From a virus: a stretch of 33,154 nt of DNA. The DNA lies in the IMG/VR virus record IMGVR_UViG_3300037337_000101, positions 1-33,154 of that record. The stretch is one strand, 5' to 3'. The notes below the pieces were generated by a model. The model saw only the letters and a list, made by a program, of their open reading frames with translations. It was not told the DNA's origin and made no database searches. The position numbers were made by a program, and so were the translations under genes. Positions 5,686 through 31,695 of this stretch are shown piece after piece; position 1 is the first letter of the stretch; each line of letters begins with the position of its first letter.

Positions 5686-5981
5686 ACGAGACCGTGCGGT
5701 TGTTTGACATGGGATTTTTTGAGCGCCAGCATTACCTGGGCATCGTGAAGCGCAAGCGGGGCCAGGCTGAGCATGACCGGCTCGTCGGTGAGGTGGCGGC
5801 CCTGCGCCAGGCCGCCAAGGTAGGCCCCATCTCCCCAGGTGTTGAGAGCGGCGCGCGCGCGCAGCAATCTTCGGATGCAAAGCAGGCGGGCACCCCCGGT
5901 GTTGGGTCCTTCCCATGCAACCCTAATGCGGGTCATTCACGGCCCGATGGGTGTGTAGACAGTGGAGCGCCCGGTAACTGA
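5682..5981 (+). CDS. Hypothetical protein before the primase, 99 aa
   Basis: The GTG at 5682 overlaps the upstream stop, and the TGA is shared with the ATG of the primase gene (TGATG). The N-terminal 50 residues (NETVRLFDMGFFERQHYLGIVKRKRGQAEHDRLVGEVAALRQAAK) are ordered and charged. The rest is low-complexity and Gly/Ser/Pro-rich. No known domain. Strict coupling to the primase-helicase suggests a replication accessory (inference). Confidence 0.65.
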   Translation: MNETVRLFDMGFFERQHYLGIVKRKRGQAEHDRLVGEVAALRQAAKVGPISPGVESGARAQQSSDAKQAGTPGVGSFPCNPNAGHSRPDGCVDSGAPGN

Positions 5982-8320
5982 TGGCCTCGAATTACGATGA
6001 CGTGCTGGGGCAGTTGCTGGCCGCCGGCCTGGTGGTTGACCACCTCGACATTGGCCGCATGCGCCGCTGCAAAGTGGACGGCGACCGCGAGAAACGTGGC
6101 TGGTATCACCTCCACGAGATCCGCCTCCCGACCGGCGATGACCTGATCGTCGGCAGCTACGGCATCTGGCGCGGTGCCGAAAACAACGCCACCAAGGTGG
6201 ACGTGCGCAAGTCGGAGCTCACTCGCGAGCAGGCTGACAGCCTGCGCAAGCGCTTGGCCGAAGACAAAAAGCGCGCCGAGCTGGCGCGCAAGGCCGATGG
6301 CGAGCGCGCCGCAGCGAAAGCCACCAAAGCCTGGCGCCAATGCACCCCCGATGGCGACTGCGACTACCTGCACAAAAAGGGCGTGGGCGCCCACGGTGTG
6401 CGGTTCAGCCCGCAGGGCGCCATGGTGATCCCCATGTTGGACGCATCCAACCAGGTGCACGGCCTGCAGATCATCCGGGGCAAGGGTAAGCCCGGCGAGC
6501 GCCGCCGCCTCGAGAAGGAATACTGGCCCGCCGGCCTCATCAAGAAGGGGCACTTCCACTGGATCGGCGGCGTGCCCGATGGCGTGATCCTGCTGGCCGA
6601 GGGCTACGCCACCGGCGCCACACTGTTCGAGGCCACCACCTTACCCGTGGCCGTGGCCTTCGATGCGGGCAACCTTGCGCCCGTGGCCGAGGCGCTGCGC
6701 AAGCGGTACAAGACCGCCAAGATTCTGATCTGCGCCGACGACGACACCTTCAGCGAAGGCAACCCCGGCGTGACTGCCGCCAGCGCCGCCGCCATGCAAG
6801 TGGGCGGCGCCTACGTGGCCCCCGCCTTTGCCGACGAGCCCGCCCGCCGCCTCGCGTTTGACACCAAGGGCCAGAAGCTCAGCGACTTCAACGACCTCTT
6901 TGCGCTTGAGGGCCTGCAGGCCGTGCGCGGCCAGGTGTCCGCCCGCCTGCTGGCTCTGGGTTGGCACGCGAGCCGGGCCGTTCGCGCCACAGCACCCGAG
7001 GGGGGAGGGGTCGGCGAGCGAAACCCACTGCGCCCCATTGACAGCCTTGATGAGTTGTTGGAGCGCTTTTCCCTCGTGTACGCACAGGGCAGTGTCGTTT
7101 TCGACCATCAGGAGCATTGCCTGCTCGCCCTCAGCGACATGCGCGACGCATGTGTTGAGCGCTCGCTGCATCGTGCGTGGTCAGACCACCCCGATCGCCA
7201 CATCGTCCGGTCTGATGAGGTCGGTTTTGACCCCGGCGAAAAAGACCCAAACATTCGCTGCAACCTGTGGGGCGGTTGGCCAACCACGCCCCGCGCTGGC
7301 GACTGTCAGTACCAGGTGGATTTGCTTCGCTACATCTGCGGAACAGAGGCCATGTTTCGGCACGTCCTTTGCTGGTTGGCACTGCCGCTGCAAAGGCCGG
7401 GAACGAAGATGAAGACCGCCCTCATCGTTCATGGCCCCCAGGGCACCGGCAAGAACCTGATCTTTGAATCGGTGATGGCCATGTACGGCACCTACGGGCG
7501 AATCATTGACCAGTCGGCCGTCGAGGACAAGTTCAACGACTGGGGCAGCCGAAAGCTGTTTCTGATTGCCGATGAGGTGGTTGCGAGGTCGGGCGTGTAT
7601 CACGTCAAGAACACCTTGAAATCCCTCATCACCGGGGAATTCATACGCATCAACGCCAAAAACATGGCCGCGCGAGACGAGCGAAACCACGTCAACATGG
7701 TCTTTCTTTCCAACGAGTCCATGCCCTTGGTGTTGGAAGAAGACGACCGGCGCTATGCCGTGATCTGGACGCCGGAAAAACTGAGCCCGGAGTTTTACCG
7801 GGACGCCGCCCGCGAGATTGCCAACGGCGGCAGCGCGGCCTTCCACCAGTATTTGCTTGACCTTGACCTAGGTGACTTCGACGCCGCCACCCTGCCGCCT
7901 ATGAACACGGCAAAACGCGAGCTGATCGACATCAGCCTAGACAGCCCAAGCCGCTTCATTGTTGACATGGAGCGCGGCGACATTGATGGCCTGCCCGGCC
8001 TAAACAGCCCGAAGCTGCTTTCGCCCTGCCTCAGCACTGACCTGTTTGACCTGTACCAGGAATGGTGCCGCCGCCTCGGCCTGCGCGCCATGCACCAACC
8101 CAGGTTCATCAACGAGCTTGACCGCAAGCACGGCGGCAAAGTCCAGCGAAAACGCTACGAGACCGAAACCGGAGTCAAGGGGCCTGCTGGTGTCATCTAC
8201 CTCAAGGGAGGACACGAACTCCCCGTTGCGGGCAGTGAGACGCAGTGGCTTGGCGAGCGCATCGAGATTTTCAAGATCGCCATGCGGGACTACAAAGCGC
8301 AGTCCAGCTACAGGATATGA
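5981..8320 (+). CDS. TOPRIM primase / SF3 helicase (P4 alpha-like)
   Basis: A 779-aa replication protein. Residues about 200-255 form a TOPRIM fold with the key Glu in LLAEGYATGATL (E207) and the Asp cluster ICADDD (252-255). Residues about 478-580 are a superfamily 3 helicase core: Walker A HGPQGTGKN (484-492), Walker B LFLIADE (526-532) and the sensor strand VNMVFLSNES. A C-terminal winged-helix-like part (about 690-760) may bind DNA. It resembles the P4 alpha family, which primes, unwinds and recognises an iteron origin. The decamer array directly downstream fits such a system. The 5' end is coupled to the previous gene. Confidence 0.9.
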   Translation: MASNYDDVLGQLLAAGLVVDHLDIGRMRRCKVDGDREKRGWYHLHEIRLPTGDDLIVGSYGIWRGAENNATKVDVRKSELTREQADSLRKRLAEDKKRAELARKADGERAAAKATKAWRQCTPDGDCDYLHKKGVGAHGVRFSPQGAMVIPMLDASNQVHGLQIIRGKGKPGERRRLEKEYWPAGLIKKGHFHWIGGVPDGVILLAEGYATGATLFEATTLPVAVAFDAGNLAPVAEALRKRYKTAKILICADDDTFSEGNPGVTAASAAAMQVGGAYVAPAFADEPARRLAFDTKGQKLSDFNDLFALEGLQAVRGQVSARLLALGWHASRAVRATAPEGGGVGERNPLRPIDSLDELLERFSLVYAQGSVVFDHQEHCLLALSDMRDACVERSLHRAWSDHPDRHIVRSDEVGFDPGEKDPNIRCNLWGGWPTTPRAGDCQYQVDLLRYICGTEAMFRHVLCWLALPLQRPGTKMKTALIVHGPQGTGKNLIFESVMAMYGTYGRIIDQSAVEDKFNDWGSRKLFLIADEVVARSGVYHVKNTLKSLITGEFIRINAKNMAARDERNHVNMVFLSNESMPLVLEEDDRRYAVIWTPEKLSPEFYRDAAREIANGGSAAFHQYLLDLDLGDFDAATLPPMNTAKRELIDISLDSPSRFIVDMERGDIDGLPGLNSPKLLSPCLSTDLFDLYQEWCRRLGLRAMHQPRFINELDRKHGGKVQRKRYETETGVKGPAGVIYLKGGHELPVAGSETQWLGERIEIFKIAMRDYKAQSSYRI

Positions 8321-8346
8321 ACACAAAAGCATTAAGTTTTACCCCA

Positions 8347-8607
8347 TCTGTGCGGCATGTGCGGCATCTGTGCGGCATCGTGTGCGGCATTAAGTCGTTG
8401 ATTCATAAGGGATGTGCGGCATGTGCGGCATCTTTCCAACTTCCCCACACATGCGTGCGTGTGCAGGTGTGCGCATGCAGGCGCACACACACGCCGCCGC
8501 AGGTGTGCGCAGATGCCGCACATGCCGCACATGCCGCACACACCCATATAAATCATGCACTTACGTGCACCCCCATGCCGCACACGATGCCGCACATGCC
8601 GCACACG
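8347..8607. repeat. Twelve-copy decamer array, six per orientation (candidate origin or packaging site)
   Basis: The 8321-8655 gap has no convincing gene. It holds TGTGCGGCAT six times on the + strand (starts 8349, 8358, 8369, 8381, 8413, 8422) and its complement ATGCCGCACA six times (starts 8513, 8522, 8531, 8575, 8587, 8596), so the two arms face each other around a centre near 8477. The centre carries a direct repeat of CAGGTGTGCGCA (8464-8475, 8500-8511). The block is flanked by AT-rich stretches, most clearly 8620-8655. It lies between the primase-helicase and the terminase genes, so either an iteron origin or a cos/terminase-binding region is possible. Confidence 0.85.
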
Positions 8608-8655
8608 CGCGCGCCCTCGGTTTATTCCTTTCATTTTTTTAAAAAAGAAAAAGAG

Positions 8656-8874
8656 ATGCCAAAACGAACCATCCGCTGCACCGCCGAAAACGCCGCCCAA
8701 GTCCAACGCCTGGTCAAAGCCGACGCCGAACTCACCGCCCTGGTCCAAAGCCTGCAAGCCCAAAACCTCTTCCCCGGCCTTCGCGGCCTCACATTCACGC
8801 TTGTGGGCGACGAAAACCACATTGCCAAGGGGTTGGATGCCTGGCCCCTGAAAAATGCGCCAGCGCCCGTTTAA
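8656..8874 (+). CDS. Small hypothetical protein before the terminase, 72 aa
   Basis: The start at 8656 is preceded by a purine-rich AAAAAGAAAAAGAG stretch. The product (MPKRTIRCTAENAAQVQRLVKADAEL...) has a helical N-terminal half and a beta-like middle (FPGLRGLTFTLVGDE). It ends 9 bases before the small terminase gene. No family recognised. An AT-rich segment directly before it may belong to the origin or to its promoter. Confidence 0.65.
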   Translation: MPKRTIRCTAENAAQVQRLVKADAELTALVQSLQAQNLFPGLRGLTFTLVGDENHIAKGLDAWPLKNAPAPV

Positions 8875-8883
8875 GCCGCCGCC

Positions 8884-9495
8884 ATGAAAACCACCCCGCC
8901 CAACCCCGGAATCCCGCCCGAGCAGCTCATCCTGCCGCGCCGCTTCGCCGAGCGCCTCGGCTTCAAACCGCAGTACGGCAACGAGCTGGTGAAAACCGGC
9001 CGCGTCGTCATGGCGCCCGACGGCAAGCACCTGCTGCTCGCTGAAAGCCTCGCCCGGTTCGAGGCCACCAAAGACCCCGGCAAGCAGGCTGTGGCCGACC
9101 GGCACGCCGCAACCAGATCCGCGCAAGCGCAGGAAAAACCCGAGCCACTGGCCGACAGCGAAGCGGAAGAAGAGCCGCCCACCGATGGCAGCGCCCGCCT
9201 GTACGACTACCACGGCGCCAAAGCCAAGCGCGAACACTGGGCCGCCGAGCGCGAGCAGGCCGCCTTTCGAAAAGAAGCCGGCGAACTCTGCGAACTCACC
9301 CGCGTGGTCGCCGTGTTTGCCGACGCGGGCGCCACCGTGCGCAGCCGCCTGGAAGCGCTTCCCACCACCCTGGCACCCCAGATCGCCGGGCGCGACGAAG
9401 CCACCTGCCGCGCCGCCATTGCCGACCAGGTGGAGCAGGCGCTGCGCGATCTGGAAAGCCGGTTCTACGCCTTCACGGCCGGCCAGCCCGCATGA
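8884..9495 (+). CDS. Terminase small subunit (Nu1-like)
   Basis: A 203-aa protein directly before a GpA-type large terminase, overlapping it as ATGA. Residues about 15-60 look like a winged helix (LPRRFAERLGFKPQYGNELVKTGRVVMAPDGKHLLLAESLARFE). An acidic linker and a helical region (YHGAKAKREHWAAEREQAAFRKEAGELCELTRV) follow, as in Nu1-type small subunits, which recognise the packaging site and dock onto the large subunit. The call rests on arrangement and motif style. Confidence 0.75.
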   Translation: MKTTPPNPGIPPEQLILPRRFAERLGFKPQYGNELVKTGRVVMAPDGKHLLLAESLARFEATKDPGKQAVADRHAATRSAQAQEKPEPLADSEAEEEPPTDGSARLYDYHGAKAKREHWAAEREQAAFRKEAGELCELTRVVAVFADAGATVRSRLEALPTTLAPQIAGRDEATCRAAIADQVEQALRDLESRFYAFTAGQPA

Positions 9496-11414
9496 GCGAA
9501 ACCTCGTTCTTTGCCGACCCGATCGACAAAGGCCGCCGCGCTTTCGCGCGCGCTGTGGCGCCCCGCAAACCCTTGACCGTCAGCCAATGGGCCGACCTGG
9601 AGCGCGTGCTCTCCGCCAAGGGCAGCGCGCAAACCGGCCCCTGGCGCACGGCGGCCAACCCCCCGCTCGGCGAACCCATGGACTGCATGAGCGCGCGCAG
9701 CGGCGTGCGCGACACCGTGCTCATGTTCCCGATCCAGTTCGGCAAAACCGAGGTCGCCGTGAACGCCCTCGGCTACGTCATGGACCATGACCCCGGACCG
9801 GTCATGGTTTGCCTGCCTGGCGAGGTGTCCATGAACAAGTGGGTCGCCCAAAAGCTGAACCCCACCATCGACGAATCGCCCGCTGTCAAGCGCGCTCTCA
9901 CCAGCGTGTCCAGCCGCGATTCCGCCAACACCCGCACCTTCAAAGACTTCGCCGGCGGCCAGCTCTTCATCGAACACGCGGGCAGCCCGAGCCGCCTCAA
10001 GTCCACCAGCGTGCGCACCCTCATCGTCGATGAGGTAGACGAGTTTTCCAACAACCTCAGCGGCGGCGACGACCCGCTGGAAATGCTCAACGGCCGCACC
10101 AGCGCCTTCCCCGCCAGCAGCAAACGCCTCTACATCTCCACACCCCAGATCAAAGGCATCAGCCGCATCGAAGGGCTTTACAACAAAAGCGACCAGCGCC
10201 GCTACCACGTTCCTTGCCCCCACTGCGGGCATCGGCAACACCTGCAATGGAGCGGCCTGCAATGGAGCGCGGACGGCGCCCAGGCCTGGTATGTGTGCCA
10301 GGAATGCGGCGCCCACATTGAAGAACACCACAAGCCCGCCATGATCGCCGCCGGCGAATGGGTTCCCGGCAACCCCGGCGCCAAAATGCGCGGTTACCAC
10401 ATCAACTGCCTTTATTACCAGTTCGGCCTCGGCCCGCGCTGGGCCGATCTGGTCGAGGTGTGGCGCGAAATACAGGGCGACCCCGCCCGCCTCAAAACCT
10501 TCATCAACGACCGCCTGGCCGAGCCCTGGGAAGATCCCGCCATGCGCGCCGTGCGGCACAACGCCATTGCCGACCGCGCCGAGCCCTACCTGCTGCGCAC
10601 CGCGCCCGCCGGGGTGCTGCGCATCACCGCTGGGGTTGACACGCAAGACAACCGCCTGGCCGTGCAAATCGTCGGCTGGGGCGTGGGCATGGCCTTCTGG
10701 GTGTTGGACTACATTGAACTCATGGGTGACCCGGCAGACGAAGCCGTCTGGACCGCGCTCACCGAGCTGCTGAACCGCCCCATCTCCCACGCCAGCGGCG
10801 CCACCCTGCGCATCGAAGCCGTCGCCTGCGACATGGGCGGCCACCGCACCGAGGCCGTGAAGTCCTACGCCCGGTCCAACCGCGTGCGCCGCTCCATGGC
10901 CATCTTTGGCGCCGTGCCCAACAACGCCCCCGTGCTCAGCAAACCCAAGGCGGCCGACGTCACCTGGCGCGGCCAGAACGACAAGCGAGGCGTTTTCATT
11001 TACCAAGTGGGCACCGTCAACGTCAAACACTGGCTCTACGGACGCCTCTCCACCGACGCCGACAAAACCGCCGAAGACCGCCTCACCCATTTCAGCGACG
11101 AGCTGCCCCCCGAATACTTCGCCGGCCTCGTCAGCGAAACCTACAACCCCGCCAAAAACCGCTTCGAGAAAAAGCGCGGCGCCCGCAACGAACCGCTTGA
11201 TACCTGGGCCTACGCCTTCGCCGCAGCCCACCACCCCGAGCTGCGCCTGCACCGCTACCGCGTGGCCGACTGGGAAGCCGCCCAAGCCCAGATCGACCGC
11301 CGCCTGGCCGCGCCAGAGGCGCCCGAAGCCGAGGCCCCCATCGCCACCACCACCCCCACCCCGCCGCCCCCGCGCCGCGCCCCACCGCGCGCCGCTCAAC
11401 CCCGTTACTGGTGA
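9492..11414 (+). CDS. Terminase large subunit, GpA family
   Basis: A 640-aa packaging ATPase/nuclease. Walker A-like segment FPIQFGKTEVAVN (residues 79-91) and Walker B LIVDEVDEF (177-185) mark the ATPase. A four-cysteine zinc ribbon lies at about 240-271 (CPHCG...CQECG). The nuclease part begins at about 380 (ITAGVDTQDNRLAVQIVGWG) with the conserved VDTQ Asp. The tail is Pro/Ala-rich. GpA enzymes cut cohesive ends, so mature virion DNA is probably linear with cos ends although the window closes as a circle. Confidence 0.95.
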   Translation: MSETSFFADPIDKGRRAFARAVAPRKPLTVSQWADLERVLSAKGSAQTGPWRTAANPPLGEPMDCMSARSGVRDTVLMFPIQFGKTEVAVNALGYVMDHDPGPVMVCLPGEVSMNKWVAQKLNPTIDESPAVKRALTSVSSRDSANTRTFKDFAGGQLFIEHAGSPSRLKSTSVRTLIVDEVDEFSNNLSGGDDPLEMLNGRTSAFPASSKRLYISTPQIKGISRIEGLYNKSDQRRYHVPCPHCGHRQHLQWSGLQWSADGAQAWYVCQECGAHIEEHHKPAMIAAGEWVPGNPGAKMRGYHINCLYYQFGLGPRWADLVEVWREIQGDPARLKTFINDRLAEPWEDPAMRAVRHNAIADRAEPYLLRTAPAGVLRITAGVDTQDNRLAVQIVGWGVGMAFWVLDYIELMGDPADEAVWTALTELLNRPISHASGATLRIEAVACDMGGHRTEAVKSYARSNRVRRSMAIFGAVPNNAPVLSKPKAADVTWRGQNDKRGVFIYQVGTVNVKHWLYGRLSTDADKTAEDRLTHFSDELPPEYFAGLVSETYNPAKNRFEKKRGARNEPLDTWAYAFAAAHHPELRLHRYRVADWEAAQAQIDRRLAAPEAPEAEAPIATTTPTPPPPRRAPPRAAQPRYW

Positions 11415-31596: not shown

Positions 31597-31695
31597 TCAA
31601 CAACAACGAGATGCGAAGCGCGGATGCATAACCCGTTGATTTACCTCATAAAACGACAATCGGGAACAATAACCAAAGACTGTCAACTTACTTGA

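Follow-up and report, generated by a model that had tools for sequence, protein, structure and literature searches.

A probable phage replication origin with two facing arms of six repeats beside a primase-helicase gene

Comparison with described origins

The repeats of the P4 origin are bound by the C-terminal winged helix of gp-alpha, according to a passage in PMC4234260 that cites earlier work. As annotated in its GenBank record, P4 ori consists of six type-1 repeats arranged +++-++ at offsets 0, 10, 21, 43, 86 and 96, read on the + strand. The origins of SaPI/PICI elements lie directly 3' of the initiator gene and consist of two iteron sets around an A/T-rich region, an organization that has been called unique (PMC6092414), and their iteron sequence is specific to the element (PMC6092414; PMC7581432). 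For the putative origin of SCCmec Cch2, the C-terminal domain of the D5-type helicase binds direct repeats downstream of its own gene (PMC7581432). The pRN1 origin likewise lies just 3' of the gene for ORF904, a primase-helicase that carries a C-terminal winged helix (PMC4234260).

Here we describe a block of repeats in a 33,154-nucleotide stretch of viral DNA (positions 1 to 33,154 of IMG/VR record IMGVR_UViG_3300037337_000101), which is referred to below as the window. Judging from computational evidence, this block is very probably the replication origin of the phage, with two facing six-site sets to which the neighboring primase-helicase would bind through its C-terminal winged helix. As in P4, there is a TOPRIM primase-helicase, there are six short repeats, and the initiator gene is followed immediately on its 3' side by a repeat cluster, in P4 named crr. 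Unlike P4, which has one six-site ori approximately 2 kb from the alpha gene and a separate crr of mixed orientation, the window has two facing arms at one locus. The decamer is confined to one block of the 33-kb record, which may be incomplete, and no second element like the P4 crr is seen in it. The primase resembles P4 alpha (BLASTP E value of 2e-9; hhalign, 98.7%) mainly in its TOPRIM part, and the helicase part (DUF5906) is only weakly similar.

The locus shares with the SaPI/PICI origins an array directly 3' of the initiator gene and two iteron sets, both in the window and in 148 of 172 relatives, and structure prediction makes the SaPI5 primase-helicase a relative of the window primase. 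It differs from them in that PICI iterons flank an A/T-rich region, whereas the A/T content of the present centre does not exceed that of the genome, and in that PICIs are satellites, whereas the present phage has terminase, portal, capsid and tail genes of its own. SCCmec Cch2 also combines a D5-type helicase with repeats downstream of its gene, but these are three short repeats and not facing six-site arms. In pRN1, a large stem-loop takes the place of iterons and the ORF904 primase is of the archaeo-eukaryotic type. Our best reading is that the array works like the P4 and SaPI/PICI origins and differs from both in having two facing arms, a centre that is not AT-rich, and a full phage as its carrier. 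We found no published description of facing arrays in the literature searched, which mostly did not extend to subscription journals, and the novelty of the design is not proven.

The repeat block in the window

A search for exact copies of the decamer TGTGCGGCAT returned six on the + strand, starting at 8349, 8358, 8369, 8381, 8413 and 8422 (left arm, 8349 to 8431), and six on the - strand, starting at 8513, 8522, 8531, 8575, 8587 and 8596 (right arm, 8513 to 8605). None of the 12 copies lies outside the block in the 33-kb window, the chance expectation is 0.31, and 0 of 100 shuffles reached 12. An earlier note on this DNA had described twelve perfect decamers, six against six, in two facing arms about 80 bases apart; the counts are confirmed, and the arms are separated by 81 bp (8432 to 8512). 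The slots of the left arm read ++++++ at offsets 0, 9, 20, 32, 64 and 73, and those of the right arm are likewise all in the same sense. The facing-array score of the window, calculated as for the relatives below, is 26.

The 81-bp centre is G/C-rich with alternating purines and pyrimidines, and it carries a direct repeat, GCAGGTGTGCGCA, at 8463-8475 and 8499-8511. The same note had claimed such a repeat with a length of 12 bp; the repeat is there, and its length is 13 bp. The right arm is followed by a CGCGCGCG run and an A/T-rich stretch (8606 to 8655, with 8618-8655 A/T-rich), which may be a candidate melting region. Of the AT-rich flanks that had been proposed on both sides, the 3' flank is thus as described and the 5' flank is only mildly A/T-rich. 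The spacer of the left arm contains a perfect match to the IHF consensus AATCAACGACTTA on the - strand (8391 to 8403), and the spacer of the right arm contains, as read from the sequence, a near-IHF site with one mismatch, AATCATGCACTTA, on the + strand (8551 to 8563). Only two perfect IHF consensus sites occur in the 33-kb window, the one at 8391-8403 (-) and one at 31629-31641 (-); the latter lies close to the end of the record.

The block is intergenic, located between the stop codon of the primase-helicase gene (8320) and a 72-aa ORF that begins at 8656. The primase-helicase (5981 to 8320, + strand) is a 779-aa protein composed of a TOPRIM primase, a DUF5906 (D5-like, SF3-type) helicase and a C-terminal winged helix; Pfam places Toprim_3 at residues 203-311 and DUF5906 at 484-591, and the protein matches PHROG 2249, DNA primase. 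Downstream, the 72-aa ORF (8656-8874, + strand), which is without a PHROG match and is conserved in approximately 26 relatives, is followed by TerS (8884-9495) and then by a GpA-type TerL (9492-11414). The window encodes terminase, portal, capsid, head-tail joining and tape-measure genes. Elsewhere in it, an HNH endonuclease ORF (1289-2020, - strand) adjoins a deoxynucleoside monophosphate kinase ORF (1995-2636). The cumulative GC skew of the window changes sign near 6-8 kb; since gene orientation switches at the same place, the skew is uninformative about an origin.

The array among relatives of the primase

We collected 255 loci by searches with relatives of the primase and by profile searches of viral contigs and of bacterial genomes, and a 96% cut-off over the last 250 residues of the primase reduced these to a non-redundant set of 172. 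The hosts named in the genome matches are mainly Burkholderiales, Xanthomonadales/Lysobacterales and Methylococcales, with some Zetaproteobacteria and others. For each locus, a facing-repeat score was calculated over a region extending 60 bp upstream and 420 bp downstream of the primase stop codon; simple motif finding had returned CG-runs in several loci, and the facing-arm score was used in its place. The median score is 16, the highest value reached among 1,220 dinucleotide shuffles is 10, and 148 of the 172 relatives have a facing array 3' of the primase stop that scores above the shuffle maximum. The other 24 score below 11; some of these are distant or cut short, and others have weak arrays. 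The earlier note had proposed looking for the array next to related primase genes and had stated that its proposal would fail if related phages kept both genes without the array; the outcome is the opposite, with the array present beside most of these genes. The inverted two-arm design that the note had called unusual is real and, being conserved among relatives, is not peculiar to the present genome. At the DNA level, a similarity search with 8000-9500 against GenBank phages gave no match, and an Rfam search gave none either. In one relative (L028), the primase frame is broken near 6150 by an apparent frameshift and the array is intact.

The repeat words differ between lineages and include TGTGCGGTAT, TGTGCCGGGT, TGTGCAGGGT, TGTGAGGCAT, TGAGACGGGT, ACCGAACGCA, TTATTACG and TATGGAAC, among others. 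The slot spacing is kept, being commonly 9-12-12-32-9 bp in the left arm and 9-9-43-12-9 bp in the right arm, with 67-110 bp between the arms. We counted sites in the 128 arrays that could be split cleanly into arms, a set that leaves out some 20 loci, including the window. At the threshold used, half of the maximum PWM score, on which the counts depend, exactly six sites are found in 77 left arms and 67 right arms, making six the commonest count per arm, and five to seven sites are found in 115 left arms and 109 right arms, five being common in right arms. Same-sense sites within arms are phased with a best period of approximately 10.5 bp (resultants of 0.76 and 0.77). In five relatives (L076, L081, L249, L122 and L136), one repeat per arm is inverted with the count still six, a pattern also found in P4 ori.

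The spacers and centres of the relatives also have recurring features. The IHF consensus WATCAANNNNTTR occurs without mismatch in 20 of 127 left spacers and 12 of 122 right spacers, where 0.1 would be expected from shuffled spacers; in the array centres of relatives, no perfect IHF consensus was found. The centres contain runs of alternating purines and pyrimidines with a median length of 17 bases, compared with 6 in shuffles and random pieces. For such runs, including the one at 8432-8512 in the window, Z-DNA, bending or easy melting are conceivable. In 117 relatives the A/T fraction of the centre is approximately 0.38, compared with 0.39 overall, and an A/T-rich centre like that of PICIs was not found; 3' of the right arm the A/T fraction rises to 0.50-0.55. 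Given that the centre is not A/T-rich, any placement of the melting site is tentative.

We compared the slot maps of the arms with that of P4 ori. The P4 map, +++-++, is absent from the arms of the window, which are all same-sense with other spacing, and is present in three relatives. The right arms of L122 and L136 read +++-++ at 0, 10, 21, 43, 86 and 95, nearly identical to P4 ori, with unrelated repeat words; a single arm of L185 is also nearly identical, and several left arms lie within approximately 1 bp on average of the P4 map. These matches bear on the question of whether the two arms do the same work. An origin with unequal arms, in which helicase loading falls to one arm and the second arm has a regulatory role or is a looping partner, would resemble the division in P4 between ori (six type-1 sites) and crr (ten sites), the latter located, like the present array, directly 3' of the alpha gene, and the two arms here are indeed unlike in spacing. 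However, both arms share the modal site count, the facing design, the IHF sites and the phasing, and the P4 map is matched by the left arm in some relatives and by the right arm in others. We regard unequal arms as a possible but rather doubtful arrangement.

The array might instead be a control element, that is, an operator or a set of copy-number or incompatibility iterons that regulates the primase or late genes and is not itself a start site. Plasmid iterons also serve copy control, and the array lies upstream of structural genes. It is located 3' of the primase gene, however, the genes downstream of it vary widely among relatives, and the six-by-six facing geometry together with the match to the P4 ori slots are features of an origin; purely regulatory repeats are thus an unlikely explanation.

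Recognition of the repeats and a model for initiation

The C-terminal fold of the primase is, in structure predictions, a winged helix with the co-varying residues on its recognition helix and wing. When the last 182 residues were modeled with AlphaFold (mean pLDDT of 91.7), helices at residues 685-699 and 706-717 were followed by a beta hairpin (720-728/731-740), and the same winged-helix elements recur in a full-length model. From this model and the co-varying columns, the winged helix (residues 685-740) is assigned to 8033-8200 on the + strand, with the recognition helix (706-717) at 8096-8131 and the beta wing (720-740) at 8138-8200. The full-length model matches the NrS-1 (E value of 8.5e-18), ASFV, SaPI5 and MPXV primase-helicases, all of which are hexameric enzymes, and a profile search of PDB sequences also found NrS-1. 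A Foldseek search with the winged helix by itself gave no match below an E value of 0.1; the top match was Cdc6/Orc1 bound to origin DNA.

We calculated mutual information between primase columns and repeat bases for 107 arrays with a TGTG-type word, with similar sequences down-weighted, a procedure that does not fully remove shared ancestry. The winged helix, which accounts for 63 of 669 columns, holds 13 of the top 20 associations and 29 of the top 50. In window numbering, G at base 6 accompanies G, A or S at residue 737 in 58 of 60 cases, C accompanies R in 9 of 11 and A accompanies T in 26 of 35. Likewise, R723 is found with C at base 5 (93 of 95) and P707 with A at base 9 (47 of 49); in the window, the codons of P707, R723 and G737 are located at 8099-8101, 8147-8149 and 8189-8191 (+ strand). 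When nearest-neighbor pairs were defined on primase residues 1-600, a base-6 difference was accompanied by a residue-737 difference in 14 of 15 pairs; of the other pairs, 20 of 66 differ at residue 737. In this nearest-neighbor test, residue 737 is the best of all columns for base 6 (P of 8e-6) and residue 723 the best for base 5 (P of 3e-6).

A prediction rule, fixed before new loci were fetched, was applied to 24 new loci with less than 90% C-terminal identity to the known ones, 14 of which could be scored. Base 6 was predicted correctly in 10 of 14 and base 5 in 13 of 14. In a split made post hoc, without three distant phages whose wings align poorly, base 6 was correct in 10 of 11, compared with 8 of 11 for a constant guess of G. 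With the commonest base present in most of the loci tested, base 6 contributes little that the training set had not already given, and base 5 is the more informative of the two.

One close pair of relatives captures a change of this kind. The primases of L015 and L021 are identical at 751 of 801 aligned residues and differ at 17 of the last 95, and an identical C-to-A change distinguishes 11 of the 12 repeats of their arrays, with most of the spacer sequence conserved between them. The shared change and the mostly unchanged spacers indicate rewriting of the existing array rather than replacement of the whole block. Gene conversion, replication slippage and selection are candidate routes for the joint change. 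Overall, the co-variation supports recognition of the repeats by the primase winged helix. The suggestion of the earlier note that the neighboring primase-helicase reads the array is thus supported by linkage to the gene, by co-variation with the winged helix, and by the P4 ori slot map in single arms of relatives.

The same note had allowed for a packaging site, with cos or TerS binding sites analogous to the lambda R sites and a small terminase (as with Nu1) that reads the repeats; in the window the array lies approximately 280 bp before TerS, a position where lambda-type phages can carry cos. Unlike sites of this type, the array neither travels with the terminase nor co-varies strongly with TerS. 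Residues of both terminase subunits associate weakly with the repeat bases, the maxima for base 6 at the same loci being 0.22 bits for TerS and 0.39 bits for TerL, compared with approximately 0.82 bits for primase residue 737. Across 139 relatives, TerL starts 771-5001 bp past the primase stop (0.8-5 kb), whereas the array stays at the stop codon. Two relatives (L045 and L205) have a strong array although their terminases belong to another family, the PHROG 9/83 type. Repeat arrays also follow distantly related primases in Turba, Presto, pAN and LPPA56, where holin or hypothetical genes come next, and in Halomonas H4907, where an antitermination gene comes next; in Turba, Presto, pAN and H4907 there is no terminase gene nearby. 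The facing scores of these five are lower because their repeat orientations are mixed. A search with TerL relatives for phages that lack the primase returned only four short contigs without a primase, which is not decisive. Given that the array is tied to the primase while terminase distance and family vary, a packaging role is very unlikely, and this half of the earlier proposal is not upheld.

A protein other than the primase or terminase, either the product of the 72-aa ORF or a host protein, could in principle read the repeats. The ORF is directly 3' of the array and is conserved, as noted above; nevertheless, arrays are present in relatives where no match to it was found, and the only DnaA-box-like matches in the window, two at chance level, are far from the array. 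The co-variation, moreover, points to the primase winged helix and not to another protein, and we consider another reader extremely improbable.

For the origin that we favor, the following mechanism can be proposed. The C-terminal winged helix of the primase would bind the decamers, as the co-variation suggests, and each arm would present six binding sites on roughly one helix face. IHF-type bending in the spacer probably folds the outer and inner repeats together, so that one helicase hexamer could assemble per arm with one subunit per repeat. The two facing hexamers might then melt the duplex, either between the arms or next to them, and the opened DNA would be primed for two divergent forks, giving a bidirectional start. 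Loading of two hexamers is the least certain part of this scheme, and a P4-like division of labor between ori and crr is also conceivable. Since array sequence and winged helix change together, the origin of each phage would be private to its own initiator. A broader proposal has, in our estimation, about an even chance of being correct: that each arm is a complete hexamer loading unit like P4 ori, that the joining of two such units in facing orientation lets DNA sequence alone position a double hexamer, and that the twelve repeats are rewritten together with the winged helix, with a natural code linking residues to bases, and many mutually private origins, as the outcome.

To our knowledge, it has yet to be settled how D5/SF3-type primase-helicases locate double-stranded origins and are loaded there. 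In the present arrays the stoichiometry seems to be written into the DNA as six facing six, and recognition and loading can be tested directly on well over 100 natural pairs of initiator and origin whose repeat words differ. The nearly identical slot maps of P4 ori, as annotated, and of single arms in relatives suggest that P4, PICIs and the present phages share an architecture, and the initiator-origin pairs could supply mutually independent replicons. Origin prediction in unannotated prophages can also benefit from the combination of array and winged helix, the array being sometimes listed as a gene. In phage S1 (L048), the annotated gene gp2 (2454-2804) overlies the array and is probably not a gene. 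Only 40 bp precede the primase start codon in the S1 record, and should the record begin at a genuine virion end, cos would be located 5' of the primase instead of at the array.
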